Shown piece by piece: positions 1,830 to 30,543 of a stretch of DNA of 32,541 nt. Numbering within the stretch: position 1 is the first letter of the stretch; the number at the start of each line of letters is the position of its first letter. A program made the translations under genes and the position numbers. Location of the stretch: the NCBI GenBank assembly GCA_028532905.1, contig JAQQAM010000269.1, positions 1 through 32,541 of the forward strand. The letters run 5' to 3'. This DNA comes from Spirochaetales bacterium (lineage in GTDB: Bacteria > Spirochaetota > Spirochaetia > DSM-2461). Below the pieces are notes generated by a model, which searched no databases, was not told the DNA's origin, and was given only the letters and a program-made list of their open reading frames with translations.

Positions 1830-2822
1830 ATGGGATTATCAGTAAAAAGACTGACTGAATTGTATTACGATATGTACTCTATTCGTCGGTTTGAGGAAGT
1901 CATAGAAAAGTATTCTGCCGCAGGGGAAATTCCCGGATTTGTTCACTTGAGTATTGGACAGGAAGCTGCTCAGGCCGGTGTGGTAGGAGCATTGAAAAAA
2001 AGTGATTATAAATTCCCCGATCACCGTGGGCATGGGGCTATATGTCTATGCGGAACGGAGAAAAAACTGGTTATGGCCGAGATTTTCGGTAAAGCTACAG
2101 GGATCAATAAAGGCAGAGGGGGCTCAATGCATGTCAATGATCTTACCTGCAGAAATATGGGCTTCAATGGTATACAAGGCTCAACAGTTGTAACCTGTCT
2201 GGGAACCGCCTTCGCATCACTGTACAACAAAACTGATGATGTTACCGCCGTTTTTATGGGGGACGGTACATTGGGAGAGGGAACCTGTCATGAAAGCCTG
2301 AATATGGCGGCAACCTGGAAACTGCCGGTTATCTATTGCCTTTTGAATAATCAATATGCAATCTCTACTCATTACAGGGAATCCCACCCCCAGCAGCAGC
2401 TTGCTACCTGGGCCAAAGGATACGAAGTTCCATCAGAAGTGGTTGACGGGAATGATATTGAAGCCGTTGTGGAAGCTGTAGAAAAAGCTGCTGTCAGAGC
2501 CAGAAAGGGAGAGGGTCCTACAGTTATTGAGTTTATGACTTACCGTTGGCAGGGGCATTTTGCTGGAGATCCTGCAGCATACCGTCCTGACGGGGAACTT
2601 GAAATGTGGCAGGATAAATGCCCCTTGAAAAAAACCCGGTCCGATCTTCTTAGTAGAAAGGTTTCTGAAAAAGAATTAAAAGAGCTGGAAGATAAAGCAG
2701 AACAGGAAATTCAGGACGCATTGGATTTTTCATTGAACAGTCCTGAGCCTGCTCCTGAGGATGCCCTAAAACATATTTATGCAGACTTTGAAGTGGAGGA
2801 TTGGTCATGCCGAGAAAACTGA
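1830..2822 (+). CDS. Thiamine-diphosphate 2-oxoacid/acetoin dehydrogenase E1 alpha subunit
   Basis: A 330-residue E1 alpha, similar in length and layout to AcoA/PdhA, which with E1 beta decarboxylates a 2-oxoacid (or cleaves acetoin) on thiamine diphosphate and acylates a lipoyl arm. The ThDP/Mg motif GDGTLGEG...NN is at residues 144-174, followed by the conserved HES-NMAATWKLPVIY segment; FGKATG-GRGGSMH is at about 86-101. Two usually conserved stretches deviate: HRGHGA where HRGHGH is common, and GFNGIQGSTVV where the family has a glycine-rich GGG loop. The start has GGGAG eight to ten bases upstream. The gene overlaps E1 beta by 16 bases, implying coupled translation. Whether the substrate is pyruvate, acetoin or another oxoacid cannot be told. 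Confidence 0.9.
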   Translation: MGLSVKRLTELYYDMYSIRRFEEVIEKYSAAGEIPGFVHLSIGQEAAQAGVVGALKKSDYKFPDHRGHGAICLCGTEKKLVMAEIFGKATGINKGRGGSMHVNDLTCRNMGFNGIQGSTVVTCLGTAFASLYNKTDDVTAVFMGDGTLGEGTCHESLNMAATWKLPVIYCLLNNQYAISTHYRESHPQQQLATWAKGYEVPSEVVDGNDIEAVVEAVEKAAVRARKGEGPTVIEFMTYRWQGHFAGDPAAYRPDGELEMWQDKCPLKKTRSDLLSRKVSEKELKELEDKAEQEIQDALDFSLNSPEPAPEDALKHIYADFEVEDWSCREN

Positions 2823-3784
2823 CATTCAGTAAAGCTATAAATGAATCTTTGATTGGAGAAATGGAACAGGATGAAAAAGTATTCATTCTAGGTGAAGATG
2901 TCGCCAAAATGGGTGGTGACTTTGGTATTACAAAGGGAATCTGGCACCGTTGGCCTGATAGAGCCTGGGATACTCCTCTTTCTGAAGCCGGATTCATAGG
3001 TTTGTCTGCGGGAGCTGCTGTCTGCGGTTTGCGTCCTGTTGCAGAGTTGATGTTTGCCGACTTTGTTACTGTCTGTTACGACCAGCTTGTCAATAATGCT
3101 GCAAAACTTCATTTCATGTATAACTGAGATGCCAGCTGCGGGATGACTGTGAGAGCAGTAACAGGAAGCGGCATCCGCTGTGCCTATCACCATTCCCAGT
3201 GCATTGAGCCCTGGCTGATGAACGTTCCCGGCCTTGTCATTGTTGCTCCTGCCACTCCCTATGAAGCAAAGGGATTGCTTACTGCTTCTATACGAAATAA
3301 TAATCCGGTAGTCTTTTTAGAGCATAAACTGCTCTACAATATGAAGGGTGATGTTCCTGAAGAGCATTATGAGATAGAGCTGTTCAAATCTCATATTGAA
3401 AAAGAAGGTACAGATATCACTATTGTTGCCACAATGGCAATGGTGGCTCTGGCTAAAAAAGCAGTAAAGAAGCTGGAAAGCCTGGGGATCTCTGCAGAGA
3501 TTATTAATCCTAGAACCCTATTTCCTCTTGATAAGGAAACCATCAAAGTGTCGGTTGCCAAAACCGGACGTCTGGTCATTCTTCAGGAAGGTCCTAAAGT
3601 GATGGGGGCTGGTGCCGAGATGGGAGCCATGATAGCAGAAGAGCTCTTTGAATACTTGAAGGCACCTGTGAAAAGAGTTACGTCTCTTGATGTTCCGGTC
3701 GCTTTTGCCCCTGTTCTTGAAGACTATATCAATCCCAGCGAAGAGCATCTGATCAAAGCCTGTCAGAGTGCTATGAACTTCTAG
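2807..3784 (+). pseudogene. E1 beta subunit of 2-oxoacid/acetoin dehydrogenase, interrupted by one in-frame TGA
   Basis: Reading from ATG 2807 (MPRKLTF, with GTGGAGGA just upstream) to 3784 in one frame gives a normal full-length E1 beta of about 325 codons, but codon 107 (3125-3127) is TGA. Both sides are well conserved: FVTVCYDQLVNNAAKLHFMYN before the stop, and TGSG...HHSQCIEPWLMNVPGLVIVAPATPYEAKGLL plus NNPVVFLEHKLLY after it. There is no frameshift. Family members generally have glycine at this position (typically YNGG or FGGK), so a single GGA-to-TGA change explains the lesion. Neighbouring genes end in TGA, so it is not a globally reassigned codon. Options are a recent nonsense mutation, a sequencing error, or readthrough. 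A separate start at ATG 3143 has no clear ribosome site. Confidence 0.85.
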
Positions 3785-3793
3785 GAGAATCAA

Positions 3794-4894
3794 ATGAGTT
3801 ATTATGTGGAAATGCCCCGTTACGGGGCGAATATGGAAGAAGGAACAGTTGGTGAATGGCTGGTTCAGGATGGTTCCCCTGTTCAGAAAGGGGATCCAAT
3901 CTGTACTATTGAGATTGAAAAATTAACCAACGAATTGCTTGCTGAGGAAGAGGGTGTTCTGAAGCATATACTTCAAGAAGGAGATACTGCTGCCTGTGGT
4001 GATGTTATTGCTTCAGTTTCAACAGAAGGTGAAGAATTACCAGCTTTAACCGGCTCTCATGAGCCTGAGGTCGCTGTCACCCCTTCCCCTGCCATGCCGG
4101 CTGAAGATAAAAAGCCTGCTGCAGGATCGGAGGCTGATGTTATGAATCTGACTCCTAAAGCACTAAAACTCTGGGAGGAAATCGGAAAACCAGATCTGAC
4201 CGGAATCAGCGGAACAGGGTACGGTGGTAAAGTCACTCGAGATGATCTGCGGAGTTGCTGCACCAATTCAGTACCTTCAGAGAGTGAAATCATTTCTTCC
4301 CGGATACAGGAGACAAATCTCCCCCGGCCTTCTGTGTCTGCTGAATATAGACCGACGGGTACAGAAATGGTATTTATCAAATCTATTCCTATGGCTCAAT
4401 TTCGAATAGAAGACATTGCAGCAGCTGTATTGTCCGGTCTGGAGAAAGTTCCGTCCATGAGGGTATTTCAGAATACAGATGTCAGGGATATGTCCAAAGA
4501 CAGTATTCTCTGGACTGTTGTGGATTCTGCTGATGGTGAACGTGCATTTCCCATGACGTATTCAGAAGTCGGTCTGGAGGATTATTCCCTTCGTTGGAAA
4601 GAAAAAATGGACAGGGCTTCTGCCGGACTGGAAAGCTCTGTTTCTCTCACCCCCCCGGGGGCTATGGTTTTCTATGATGCCTCACAATACGGATTGGATA
4701 TATTCAAACCGGGATTGAGCGGATTTAATGGTCCCTCTGTAACAGTTGGATCTCCTGGGAACAGAATTAATATTCAGGATGGATCTTTCTCTTCTGTTCG
4801 TGAAGTAAGTATTTGTCTGACTGTAGATTCAAGTCTGGTCAGTCGTTCAGCGGCATTGCAGTTTTTAAACTATCTGGAATCCAGTTTCCAGTGA
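3794..4894 (+). CDS. E2-like lipoyl protein with degenerate acyltransferase domain (E3BP/protein X-like)
   Basis: A 366-residue protein with E2 architecture. An N-terminal lipoyl domain (about 1-75) has the modifiable lysine K43 in IEKLTNE. A Pro/Glu/Ala-rich linker follows, then an E3/E1-binding domain at about 117-153 (NLTPKALKLWEE...GTGYGGKVTRDDL), then a shortened C-terminal region resembling the CoA-dependent acyltransferase fold. The catalytic DHRxxDG motif aligns with D345-S-S-L-V-S-R351, so both catalytic His and Asp are serine and the Gly is Arg; the ISNLG segment and the start of the domain (R..IA..M) are also lost. It starts at an ATG with AGGAG nine bases after E1 beta. The lipoyl carrier and docking roles look intact; acyl transfer to CoA does not. 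The architecture resembles eukaryotic E3-binding protein (protein X). Confidence 0.85.
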   Translation: MSYYVEMPRYGANMEEGTVGEWLVQDGSPVQKGDPICTIEIEKLTNELLAEEEGVLKHILQEGDTAACGDVIASVSTEGEELPALTGSHEPEVAVTPSPAMPAEDKKPAAGSEADVMNLTPKALKLWEEIGKPDLTGISGTGYGGKVTRDDLRSCCTNSVPSESEIISSRIQETNLPRPSVSAEYRPTGTEMVFIKSIPMAQFRIEDIAAAVLSGLEKVPSMRVFQNTDVRDMSKDSILWTVVDSADGERAFPMTYSEVGLEDYSLRWKEKMDRASAGLESSVSLTPPGAMVFYDASQYGLDIFKPGLSGFNGPSVTVGSPGNRINIQDGSFSSVREVSICLTVDSSLVSRSAALQFLNYLESSFQ

Positions 4895-4934: not shown

Positions 4935-6197
4935 ATGAATGGAAAAAAGAAGCTTAAAATGGCATTGGATCACCAGCCGGGAGTTGTTCCTGTAGATTTT
5001 GGTGCAACAAGTGTTTCTGGAATGCATTGTTCTGTTGTTGAAGGTTTACGGCAGTACTATGGACTTGAGGACCGACCTGTAAAGGTTCATGAGCCTTATC
5101 AGATGCTGGGTATGATTGAGGAGGATCTTCAGGAGGTTCTGGGAATTGATACTGTTGGAGTGTTTCCTCGAAATACGATGTTCGGTTTTCCTCTCTCAGA
5201 CTGGAAGGAGTGGAGAACTCCCTGGGGACAGGATGTCCTTGTTTCTAAAAACTTTAACACAACTGAAGAGGGAAACGACATTCTGATTTATCCGGAAGGA
5301 GATGTTTCCGTTCCTCCCAGTGCCAGGATGCCGGAAGGAAGCTATTTTTTTGATACTATAATCCGTCAGCCTGATTTTGATGAAACTGATCTTAATCCTG
5401 AAGACAATCTGGAAGAATTCAAGGCAGTCAGCGAAGAAGACCTTGCATATTATCAGATTTCCTGTACTGAGGCTGAGAAGTCCGGTAAAGCTGTTGTCGC
5501 CAGTTTCGGGGGAACAGGATTCGGTGATATTGCCCTTGTTCCTGCCCCATTTCTGAAACACCCCAAAGGAATAAGGGATATCACTGAATGGTATATGTCG
5601 ACTGGTCTTAGACCGGACTATATTCATGCCATTTTTGAGAAGCAGTGTGAAACAGCTCTTTTCAATTTGAATAAGATCCACCAGGTTGTTGGGAATATAC
5701 CGGATGCAGTTTTTATCTGTGGAACCGATTTCGGAACTCAGACGTCTCAGTTTTGTTCTCTGGATGCATTCAGAGAGTTATATGCTCCTTATTACAAAAA
5801 AATCAATGATTGGATTCATCATCACACTACCTGGAAAACATTCAAACACTCCTGCGGAGCTGTAGAACCGTTCATTACGGAACTTATAAATTGCGGATTT
5901 GATATTCTCAATCCGGTACAGTGTTCTGCAACGGGAATGTCTCCTGCAGATCTTAAAACACGTTACGGTAGTAAGCTGACATTCTGGGGAGGAGGAGTGG
6001 ATACGCAGAAAACTCTTCCCTTCGGATCAGCCGATGATGTGAGAAAAGAGGTCCGGGAGAGGTTGGAAGTATTCAGCAATGAGGGGGGATTTGTTTTTGA
6101 CGCCATTCATAATGTTCAGGCAGGTACCCCGGTAGCAAATGTCGTTGCCATGATTGAGACGGTCAAATCATTCAATCAGGAGCATGGCCGGGGTTAA
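4935..6197 (+). CDS. Uroporphyrinogen decarboxylase-family (UroD/MtaA-like) protein, copy 1
   Basis: A 420-residue UroD-superfamily TIM-barrel protein. True UroD features such as the N-terminal RPPxWxMRQAG are absent and no haem genes are nearby, so porphyrin decarboxylation is unlikely. The superfamily also includes corrinoid-dependent methyltransferases (MtaA, MtbA, CmuA), which bind zinc through His-x-Cys plus a later Cys. Here H305-S-C307 is present in TFKHSCG, but the later position reads AIHNVQAGTP (H392), so His might replace Cys; that is inference. It starts at ATG 4935 with AAGGTG upstream, 40 bases after the E2-like gene, and ends the operon. It closely resembles the gene at 29284-30543 over its full length. 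Substrate unknown. Confidence 0.88.
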   Translation: MNGKKKLKMALDHQPGVVPVDFGATSVSGMHCSVVEGLRQYYGLEDRPVKVHEPYQMLGMIEEDLQEVLGIDTVGVFPRNTMFGFPLSDWKEWRTPWGQDVLVSKNFNTTEEGNDILIYPEGDVSVPPSARMPEGSYFFDTIIRQPDFDETDLNPEDNLEEFKAVSEEDLAYYQISCTEAEKSGKAVVASFGGTGFGDIALVPAPFLKHPKGIRDITEWYMSTGLRPDYIHAIFEKQCETALFNLNKIHQVVGNIPDAVFICGTDFGTQTSQFCSLDAFRELYAPYYKKINDWIHHHTTWKTFKHSCGAVEPFITELINCGFDILNPVQCSATGMSPADLKTRYGSKLTFWGGGVDTQKTLPFGSADDVRKEVRERLEVFSNEGGFVFDAIHNVQAGTPVANVVAMIETVKSFNQEHGRG

Positions 6198-10695: not shown

Positions 10696-12499
10696 AGCGG
10701 GCCACCTGGTCACTGAGAATCAGGGCCTGGGAACTGAATTCCTCTGCCATGGAGGCCAGTTCTTCTGAGGATGCCGCATTCTGCTGAATAACAGTATCCA
10801 GCTGTCTGAGGGCTGTATTGATCTGTTCCGCTTCACTGCGCTGTTCCTGAGTTGCCGCCTTTACTTCACTCACAAGCTCGGCGGTGTTTTTGATTTCCGG
10901 TATCACATGATCCAGAAGAATCTGTCCCGCCGTTGAGGCAACTTTCAGGGATTCGGTGGTCTCGGCGATAATTTCGAATGCCGCATTCTGACTGTTCACA
11001 GCCAGTTTTCTGACCTCTCCTGCCACAACGGCAAATCCGCTGCCAGCCGTTCCGGCACGGGCGGCTTCTATGGCTGCATTCAGGGCCAGCATATTCGTTT
11101 GCCGGGCAATTTCACTGATGATCTGGATTTTATCGGAGATGTTTTTGGAATAGGTAATGGTGTCATCAACAGCCTTTCCTCCATCTCCGGCACTGACAGC
11201 CACTTTGTTGGCTATAGATTCGGTCATATCCGTATTGTCCGAGTTGGCGTTGATGGAGTCGGTCATTTTATCCATGGAGGCTGAAACTTCCTGGGATGTG
11301 GCCGCCTGTTCGGTGGCTCCTTCAGACAGAAGCTGACTGGTGGAGCTGATGCTTTCGCTTCCGTCACTGATCTGATTGGCAATACTCTGAATTTCGATAA
11401 AACTGTTTCTCAGCTCAGTGGTCATCAGGTTCAGGGCTCTGGCCAGATCGCCGACCTCATCGTTCTTTTTGAGAAGGGCAGGATCAATGGCGGCGGTCAA
11501 ATCTCCACCGGCAATCTGAACTGCCACTGCCGAGGCCGCCTCAATGGTGTTGCTGAAACGTCTGGCAAACTGAAAGACCGCAACCACCAGAATCAGGATG
11601 GCTCCTGCTGTCATCAGAATGATCAGTCTGATGGTCTTTGTTATGGACTCAAGGTATTCACTCCGGCTTATTGTGATACCCAGAATCCAGCCGGGAGTCA
11701 TCTTAACTGTATGGAGAAAGCTCACCATTCTGTTTCCGTTCCTGTCTGTAAACTCCCCCTGTATCCCTTTTTCATCTTCACCCATCAGGGATACCAGATC
11801 TTCAATTCCCATCAGACTGGTCTGATAGAGTTCCGAGTCGGGAGTACTCATTATCAGATCCTGTTCGGGATGGGCCAGAACAGTCCGGGTACCGTCCAGG
11901 ATAAATCCGTAACCGGTTCTGCCTATTTTGACAGATCCGGCAATCTGGGACAGAGTTTCCAGCTTGACCGTGGCGGCGATGATTCCCTTGAACTTGCCAT
12001 TACTGTCTTCCACTTTCCGGGCAATCACAAAAATCGGTATACCCATGGATTTCGAAATAACAGGGTTGCTGACAACTGCTTCTGCTGCTCCGCTTTTGAT
12101 GTCTTTAAAGTAGTCTCTGCCTGATATGTCTCCCGCTGCTCCCAGACTGGAACGGTATTTTCCCTGGTCATCGGAAACAAAGATCATGGCGATTTCTCTG
12201 CTGAATGAGGAATGCCGTCCTGCCAGGTAGTTTCCCGCCTCCTCCAGTGTGCCGGTTCTGATTATATTCAGATCGGCCACTCCTTTCACATAGTTCTGCT
12301 GCCCTTCCAGCCAGCGGGCAATTTCATCTCCCCTGGATGCCGCAATCTGTAGATTCATGTCCCTGTTGAGGGATGTGAAGGATCTGTTTGTGATCGACAG
12401 CAGTGCCCCTCCGAAAACAAGAAAGAGAATCAGTGACAGTCCCCCGAAGGTGAGGAGCAGTTTCTTTAAAATCGATCCGTTTTTCTTTTCGTCTTTCAT
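10646..12499 (-). CDS. Methyl-accepting chemotaxis protein with Cache sensor domain
   Basis: A 617-residue transducer. Transmembrane helix 1 is at about 10-36, a periplasmic Cache-type sensor at about 37-288 ([26 protein letters not shown] and [18 protein letters not shown] are typical), transmembrane helix 2 at about 291-311, then HAMP. The signalling hairpin tip is [20 protein letters not shown]...[13 protein letters not shown] at about 464-500. Cache domains of this kind bind small organic ligands such as amino or organic acids; the ligand here is not predictable. The upstream TTG at 12535 is less likely than ATG 12499; neither has a good ribosome site. No C-terminal CheR-tethering pentapeptide is visible (it ends ELLEE). 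The 3' end overlaps the sensor kinase gene by 50 bases. Confidence 0.92.
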
Positions 12500-29283: not shown

Positions 29284-30543
29284 ATGATGAATTCAAGAGA
29301 AAGAGTAGAGACAAGTATTGCTCATAAACAGCCTGACAGAATTCCCGTCGATTTTGACGGGACCGCGGTATCGGGCATTCATATAAGCTGTGTGGAACAG
29401 CTGCGGGAATATTACGGCCTGGATAAACACCTGGTGAAAATGACCGAACCCTATCAGTGTCTCGGTGAGATTGAACCGGATCTGGCAGAGATTATCGGGA
29501 TTGATGTTCAGGCTGCCAACGGTCCTTCCACGTTTTTCGGATTTGAGAATGAGGGCTGGAAAGAATGGAAGGCGCCCTGGGGACAGCCTGTTCTGGTTCC
29601 GGGTGAGTTTAATACGACAACTGATGACAAGGGTGATGTTTATATCTATCCGGAAGGGGATCTTTCGGCTCCTGCCAGCGGCCATATGCCGGAGAGCGGG
29701 TATTTCTTTGATGCCATTATCAGACAGGACCCTCTTCCCCTGGATGATGAGGATCTGAATGTAGAGGATAATCTTGAAGAATTCGGTCCCATCAGCGAAA
29801 AAGTTTTGAATGATGTGAAAGCAAAGGTGGATGCCGCCTGGGACAAGGGCAAGTTTGTCGTAACCAATGTAGGCGGAACAGGTCTGGGAGATATTGCTCT
29901 GGTTCCGGCTCTCTGGATGAAACATCCCAAAGGGATCAGGGATATTACGGAGTGGTATATTTCAACCGCTATCCGTCAGGATTATGTTACTGAGATCTTT
30001 GAGCGTCAGTATGAGATTGCCTTGAAGAATCTGGAAGCTCTGTATGAGAAATGCGGCAATAAAATCGGTATGCTCTTTGTCTGCGGGACGGATTTTGGAA
30101 CCCAGGACAGCACATTCTGCTCAACAGACACGTATATGTCCCTTTATCACAAACATTACAGGAAGCTGAATGACTGGGTCCATGACAATACTGAATGGAA
30201 AACCTTCAAACACTGCTGTGGTTCCATACCGGACTTTATGCCCCTTTTTATTGAATCAGGCTTTGATGTGATCAATCCGGTGCAGACTTCGGCCAAGGGG
30301 ATGGATCCCGTCTTTCTGAAACGGGAGTTCGGAAAGGATATTACCTTCTGGGGAGGCGGAGTGGATACACAGAGAATCCTGCCCTTTGGAACTCCAGAGG
30401 AAGTTAAGGAAGAAGTCAGCCGGAAACTGGATATTTTCGGTAAGGATGGGGGATATGTCTTCAACGCCATCCATAATGTACAGGCGGGAACTCCCGTTGA
30501 AAACCTGGCGGCTCTGTTTGAAACACTCAACAGTAGGCGCTGA
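29284..30543 (+). CDS. Uroporphyrinogen decarboxylase-family (UroD/MtaA-like) protein, copy 2
   Basis: A 419-residue paralogue of the protein at 4935-6197. Shared stretches include IPVDF-GT-VSG, EPYQ-LG-IE-DL-E--GID, WKEW--PWGQ-VLV, IYPEGD, DNLEEF, HPKGIRDITEWY, CGTDFGTQ, WKTFKH-CG and TFWGGGVDTQ. The putative metal motif is H310-x-C312 (HCCG), with the later AIHNVQAGTP again carrying His rather than Cys. It follows the sugar ATPase by 14 bases with GAAGGA upstream, so it belongs to the transport operon and probably acts on the imported compound or a product. Porphyrin chemistry is unlikely; methyl or other one-carbon transfer is the best superfamily guess. Confidence 0.9.
   Translation: MMNSRERVETSIAHKQPDRIPVDFDGTAVSGIHISCVEQLREYYGLDKHLVKMTEPYQCLGEIEPDLAEIIGIDVQAANGPSTFFGFENEGWKEWKAPWGQPVLVPGEFNTTTDDKGDVYIYPEGDLSAPASGHMPESGYFFDAIIRQDPLPLDDEDLNVEDNLEEFGPISEKVLNDVKAKVDAAWDKGKFVVTNVGGTGLGDIALVPALWMKHPKGIRDITEWYISTAIRQDYVTEIFERQYEIALKNLEALYEKCGNKIGMLFVCGTDFGTQDSTFCSTDTYMSLYHKHYRKLNDWVHDNTEWKTFKHCCGSIPDFMPLFIESGFDVINPVQTSAKGMDPVFLKREFGKDITFWGGGVDTQRILPFGTPEEVKEEVSRKLDIFGKDGGYVFNAIHNVQAGTPVENLAALFETLNSRR

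Follow-up and report, generated by a model that had tools for sequence, protein, structure and literature searches.

The E2 of an operon in a Spirochaetales bacterium appears to be split over two genes, with one product providing the lipoyl arm and the anchor for E3 and the other providing catalysis. We put the probability of this reading at about 0.58. The putative arm-and-anchor protein (366 amino acids; positions 3794–4894) is encoded in the window, the whole stretch of DNA that we analysed (32,541 nt; forward strand of contig JAQQAM010000269.1, assembly GCA_028532905.1), and the candidate catalytic protein is encoded upstream on another of the 296 contigs of the host genome, C277. All of the coordinates given below without a contig or locus name refer to the window and to its plus strand.

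The window begins with the 3′ part of lpd, the gene for dihydrolipoamide dehydrogenase (E3; 1–1057; TIGR01350, 294 bits), the first ~103 codons of which are on C277. Genes follow for an SDR oxidoreductase (1069–1797; adh_short, 195.6 bits), which is found in most loci of this operon family, for the E1α subunit (1830–2822; E1_dh, 257 bits; 78% identity to the proteins of two related loci, L061 and L062), for the E1β subunit (2807–3784), which is interrupted by an in-frame TGA, and for the E2-like protein. On its 3′ side lies a gene for a URO-D/MtaA-CmuA-type protein (4935–6197; URO-D, 50.5 bits); a second, similar gene is found in the window at 29284–30543, placed after a sugar-type ABC transporter.

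Lipoyl and docking domains with a degenerate CAT domain

By its position, the E2-like protein is the syntenic counterpart of the E2s in related operons. Its lipoyl domain is well preserved (Pfam Biotin_lipoyl PF00364, residues 5–74; 60.6 bits, E = 1.3 × 10−16, above the cut-off), and K43 (codon AAA, 3920–3922), in the motif IEIEKLTNE, aligns with the lipoyl lysine of the family E2s, for example that of L061 (EIEKLTNE). The peripheral-subunit (E3) binding domain spans residues ~119–155 (4148–4258), and its match to E3_binding PF02817 (residues 120–152; E = 7 × 10−4) scores 20.1 bits, slightly below the curated value of 23.7. Both features had been described as retained in the first-pass annotation, which these matches bear out. 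NCBIfam E2 models are mostly restricted to the N-terminal ~165 residues of the protein, and none extends beyond residue 234.

The remainder of the protein (residues ~201–366; 4394–4891) is a degenerate and shortened catalytic (CAT) domain, as delineated by profile, MAFFT alignment and predicted structure. Pfam finds no match to the PF00198 acyltransferase in the E2-like protein even at E ≤ 10. A profile built from related CAT domains scores 10.2 bits against the C terminus, compared with 5.6 bits for the best of 2,000 shuffled sequences, and its alignment sets ‘LTVDSSLVSRSAALQFLNYL’ on ‘LthDHrvidGApAArflnel’. At the positions of the HxxxDG motif, S346 (4829–4831) is thus aligned to the His, and S350 and R351 (4841–4846) to the Asp and Gly; MAFFT gives the same register, and its alignments show that ~45 N-terminal CAT residues are absent. 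The loss of the catalytic residues and the shortening of the first part of the domain, both proposed earlier from the sequence, are therefore upheld.

The predicted C-terminal domain superimposes on the solved E2 core 1scz (VIA-align Z = 18.1, 2.9 Å, 168 residues) and on the human E3BP model 6h60 (Z = 17.6), and when folded alone it is matched to E2 cores by Foldseek with a probability of 1.00; because E2 sequences, and only these, made up the input alignment of the structure models, which are of moderate quality (pLDDT 63–67), these matches indicate compatibility with the fold and are no independent proof of it. A diverged CAT domain is recovered by both approaches that the first-pass annotation had recommended, profile alignment and structure prediction. 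The C terminus is a genuine, strongly diverged CAT fold.

The segment also retains the properties of a coding sequence. It has no stops in 182 codons, whereas shuffled versions contain 10.5 on average and none of 2,000 is stop-free, and its synonymous codon bias resembles that of the E1α gene. It has therefore been kept as coding sequence, at least until very recently. A search for the segment across 393 genomes of the phylum returned no clear homologue, with two weak, partial matches (E = 0.002–0.01), and a scan of genome contigs with the full-length E2-like sequence turned up no relative. The dN/dS values against relatives are saturated.

A free-standing CAT domain across the contig joint

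The first base of the window falls inside lpd. C277 ends in ‘...ACTTCTGATGAAGAAAAACAG’ followed by ‘AGATCGGAAGAGCGTCGT’, which we take to be the start of an Illumina adapter; the 18 terminal adapter bases (L057:17095–17112) account for the contig break at the start of the window. The 23-mer at the joint occurs only twice in the genome, at the end of C277 and at base 1 of the window, and joining the two contigs yields an unbroken Lpd of 456 amino acids with the redox motif CLNEGC.

Searching the genome with PF00198 revealed an isolated CAT domain on C277, encoded ~2.86 kb upstream of the first base of the window. The protein has 224 amino acids, carries the motif DHRAVDG and matches nearly the whole profile (193.8 bits); CAT is its sole domain, with no lipoyl or E3-binding domain found. 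A GGAG stretch precedes the start codon. The gene is not a truncated full-length E2, as its stop-to-stop frame has only 230 amino acids and just 29 bp lie between its start and the end of the preceding gene. Across the joint, the order of genes is CAT-only, SRPBCC, amidohydrolase, lpd, SDR, E1α, E1β and E2-like, and throughout this string neighbouring genes are separated by no more than ~32 bp or overlap.

The first-pass annotation had described the window protein as the only E2 of the operon. This is correct within the window, but overall it only reflects where the contig breaks off, given the intact CAT-only protein upstream in the same string of genes. It had also reasoned that an intact E2 upstream would reduce the window protein to a plain accessory subunit. 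The CAT domain upstream is indeed complete, with DHRAVDG, but it comes without lipoyl and E3-binding domains, and the window protein is therefore not a plain accessory; it would contribute the domains missing from the catalytic subunit. A conclusion drawn from one contig can thus hinge on an assembly broken by adapter sequence.

We propose that the acyl group from E1α and E1β would be loaded onto the lipoyl domain of the window protein, at a presumably lipoylated K43, and that the CAT-only protein would transfer it in trans from this arm to CoA, the expected acceptor. The docking domain of the window protein would hold Lpd, which would reoxidize the arm, and, as in E3BP, the dead CAT domain would most likely attach this arm to the CAT core. 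Two small, expressible proteins with fully divided roles would make core attachment and the supply of lipoyl groups in trans directly testable. Proximity is no proof of interaction, and the CAT-only gene could instead serve a neighbouring step of the pathway.

To place the CAT-only protein, we analysed 78 CAT domains by maximum likelihood. In the resulting tree the 23 family E2s group in a single clade (support 95/90), and the CAT-only protein falls outside it, elsewhere among spirochaete E2s, on a branch of length 1.4 that makes its exact placement unsure. The tree gives no support to descent from the operon’s own E2. Judged from these sequences, the CAT-only protein was probably recruited from outside the E2 lineage of the operon, after which the native CAT decayed; an origin from the operon’s own E2 by very fast change is less likely. 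The fuller scenario, in which a free-standing CAT of another E2 lineage took over catalysis while the native E2 became arm and anchor, with its CAT now a core-binding domain, is one that we advance tentatively and hold at a little below even odds.

The search of the genome for a further E2, suggested in the first-pass annotation, returned two intact full-length E2s (on C138 and C258), each adjoined by its own E1 and E3 genes, besides the CAT-only protein of C277. The genome also encodes a further free-standing CAT-like protein of a very distant type (C178; L004:967–1794; 275 amino acids, HNVLDG) and a fusion of 1,124 amino acids that combines E1α, E1β, a lipoyl domain and a β-ketoacyl-ACP synthase III (C209; L208:5263–8634). 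The condensing enzyme in the place of CAT suggests that this fusion may use the acyl-lipoyl group directly in fatty-acid initiation.

Related operons and alternative explanations

A search with E1α defined a family of 34 loci (L061–L094) with 56–78% identity, and the next matches reach only 43%. Most of these loci encode an ordinary E2 after E1β, with HxxxDG or HxxxNG; HxxxNG alone is no sign of loss, because PDB titles show that Asn614 of the Azotobacter E2 has been studied as part of the active site. Several other loci depart from this pattern. In L086, from a Lachnospiraceae metagenome-assembled genome, the ‘E2’ (11968–12486; 172 amino acids) consists of a lipoyl and a docking domain only, the next gene begins 3 bp after it, and no CAT gene is found in the 21-kb locus; a CAT-like protein of the same genome (L194) was rejected as the missing domain, as it is of another type and has no active-site His. 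The E2 of L082 is without a lipoyl domain and has HRIIKD at the motif, that of L075 has HGVLTG, the CAT of L062 carries frameshifts, and three loci of Atribacterota (L089–L091) have E1α and E1β without an E2. Flavoprotein-like genes lie near the E1 pair in L090. From these sequences, CAT is lost or damaged several times in the operon family; most family loci are metagenome assemblies, in which single cases may be errors.

In the sets searched, no other genome was found to have its E2 split in this way. Two apparently free-standing CATs in relatives (L197 and L198) were rejected, being E2s cut by contig ends. Part of the wider gene order recurs in L061, in which an amidohydrolase adjoins lpd and an SRPBCC gene is in the same locus. 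In relatives, the E1 pair is accompanied by a homologue of methenyl-H4MPT cyclohydrolase (MCH; L061:10421–11380 and its counterparts), XDH-family proteins, RibD_C and amidohydrolase; MCH has no match in the window’s own genome. The XDH-family, RibD_C and amidohydrolase neighbours, together with MCH in relatives, hint at the catabolism of a purine- or pterin-type ring, for which we claim no substrate; the literature searched describes no matching gene set.

Relatives with the same E1 and either no CAT (L086), no E2 (L089–L091) or a damaged HxxxDG (L075 and L082) raise the possibility that no transfer to CoA takes place, and that E1, lipoyl arm and E3 only oxidize or cleave the substrate or pass the acyl group to another acceptor. 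The host’s own fusion of E1, lipoyl domain and KASIII, with its condensing enzyme in the place of CAT, points the same way. For the window’s operon we consider this improbable, as its upstream part encodes a complete CAT domain. The suggestions in the first-pass annotation that the complex only oxidizes, or uses an acceptor other than CoA, thus lose their need here, even though they keep a parallel in the relatives that have no CAT or no E2 at all. We regard as similarly improbable that the window protein is a true accessory that inserts, in the manner of E3BP, into the core of the C138 or C258 E2 rather than acting with the CAT-only protein. Its E3BP-like layout, the fit to 6h60 and the presence of two intact full-length E2s would all suit such a role, but those E2s have E1 and E3 genes of their own beside them, and a nearer candidate for the partner is the CAT-only protein encoded in the operon itself.

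A somewhat stronger contender, although still unlikely, is that the operon is decaying and that the window protein, its catalytic domain eroding, has no present function. The in-frame TGA of E1β (3125–3127) replaces a Gly that is conserved in the seven relatives matched, every catalytic residue and ~45 residues of the CAT domain are gone, and the CAT of the related L062 is frameshifted. The two halves of E1β lie in the same frame and give gapless alignments with relatives, interrupted by the single TGA, so a frameshift can be rejected; the codon would be a nonsense mutation or a sequence error. Because E1α and both halves of E1β (81% and 77%) are still 77–81% identical to their L061 counterparts, the stop would be either recent or an error, and this conservation itself speaks against decay, as do the intact lpd across the joint and the retained lipoyl and docking domains. 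Decay also sits poorly with 182 stop-free codons of native bias in the most diverged part of the protein. With this stop codon present in the deposited sequence, the strain could have a non-functional complex.

Comparison with known systems

The first-pass annotation had likened the window protein to the eukaryotic E3BP (protein X) of pyruvate dehydrogenase complexes, and the likeness stands: a lipoyl domain, a docking domain and an inactive CAT homologue, which in E3BP binds the core, are all present. The core-binding domain of fungal E3BP is described as having inherited its fold from the catalytic domain of an ancestral E2, and the reason why an E2 copy without catalytic activity evolved in animals and fungi has been discussed as an open question (PMC10156792). 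The two systems differ in their partners. The E2 that accompanies E3BP has lipoyl and docking domains of its own, whereas the candidate catalytic partner here has neither, and our tree, in which this CAT-only protein sits on a long branch, does not point to it as the paralogue that gave rise to the dead domain. A split E2, if confirmed, would mean that an E3BP-like subunit was invented independently in bacteria. We found no case of an E2 split into lipoyl and CAT proteins in bacteria in the literature searched, of which coverage was incomplete.

By domain content, the CAT-only protein resembles actinobacterial OdhA/KGD, in which CAT depends on lipoyl groups given in trans (PMC10415282); it likewise has no lipoyl domain of its own and would receive its arm in trans. 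However, the CAT of OdhA is fused to E1o, whereas here it is free-standing (224 amino acids) and E1α and E1β are separate genes, and OdhA borrows the arm of a fully active E2p, whereas the arm protein here carries a dead CAT. The closest comparisons are within the family. The full-length E2s of L061, L063, L064 and others share the order E1α–E1β–E2, accompanied in many loci by SDR and Lpd, but combine lipoyl, docking and CAT (HxxxDG or HxxxNG) in one protein, whereas the window protein has no working CAT. L086 resembles the window in that the same E1 pair is followed by a protein with lipoyl and docking domains but no functional CAT; there the CAT is wholly absent, whereas the window protein keeps a degenerate one and a CAT gene lies upstream in its operon.
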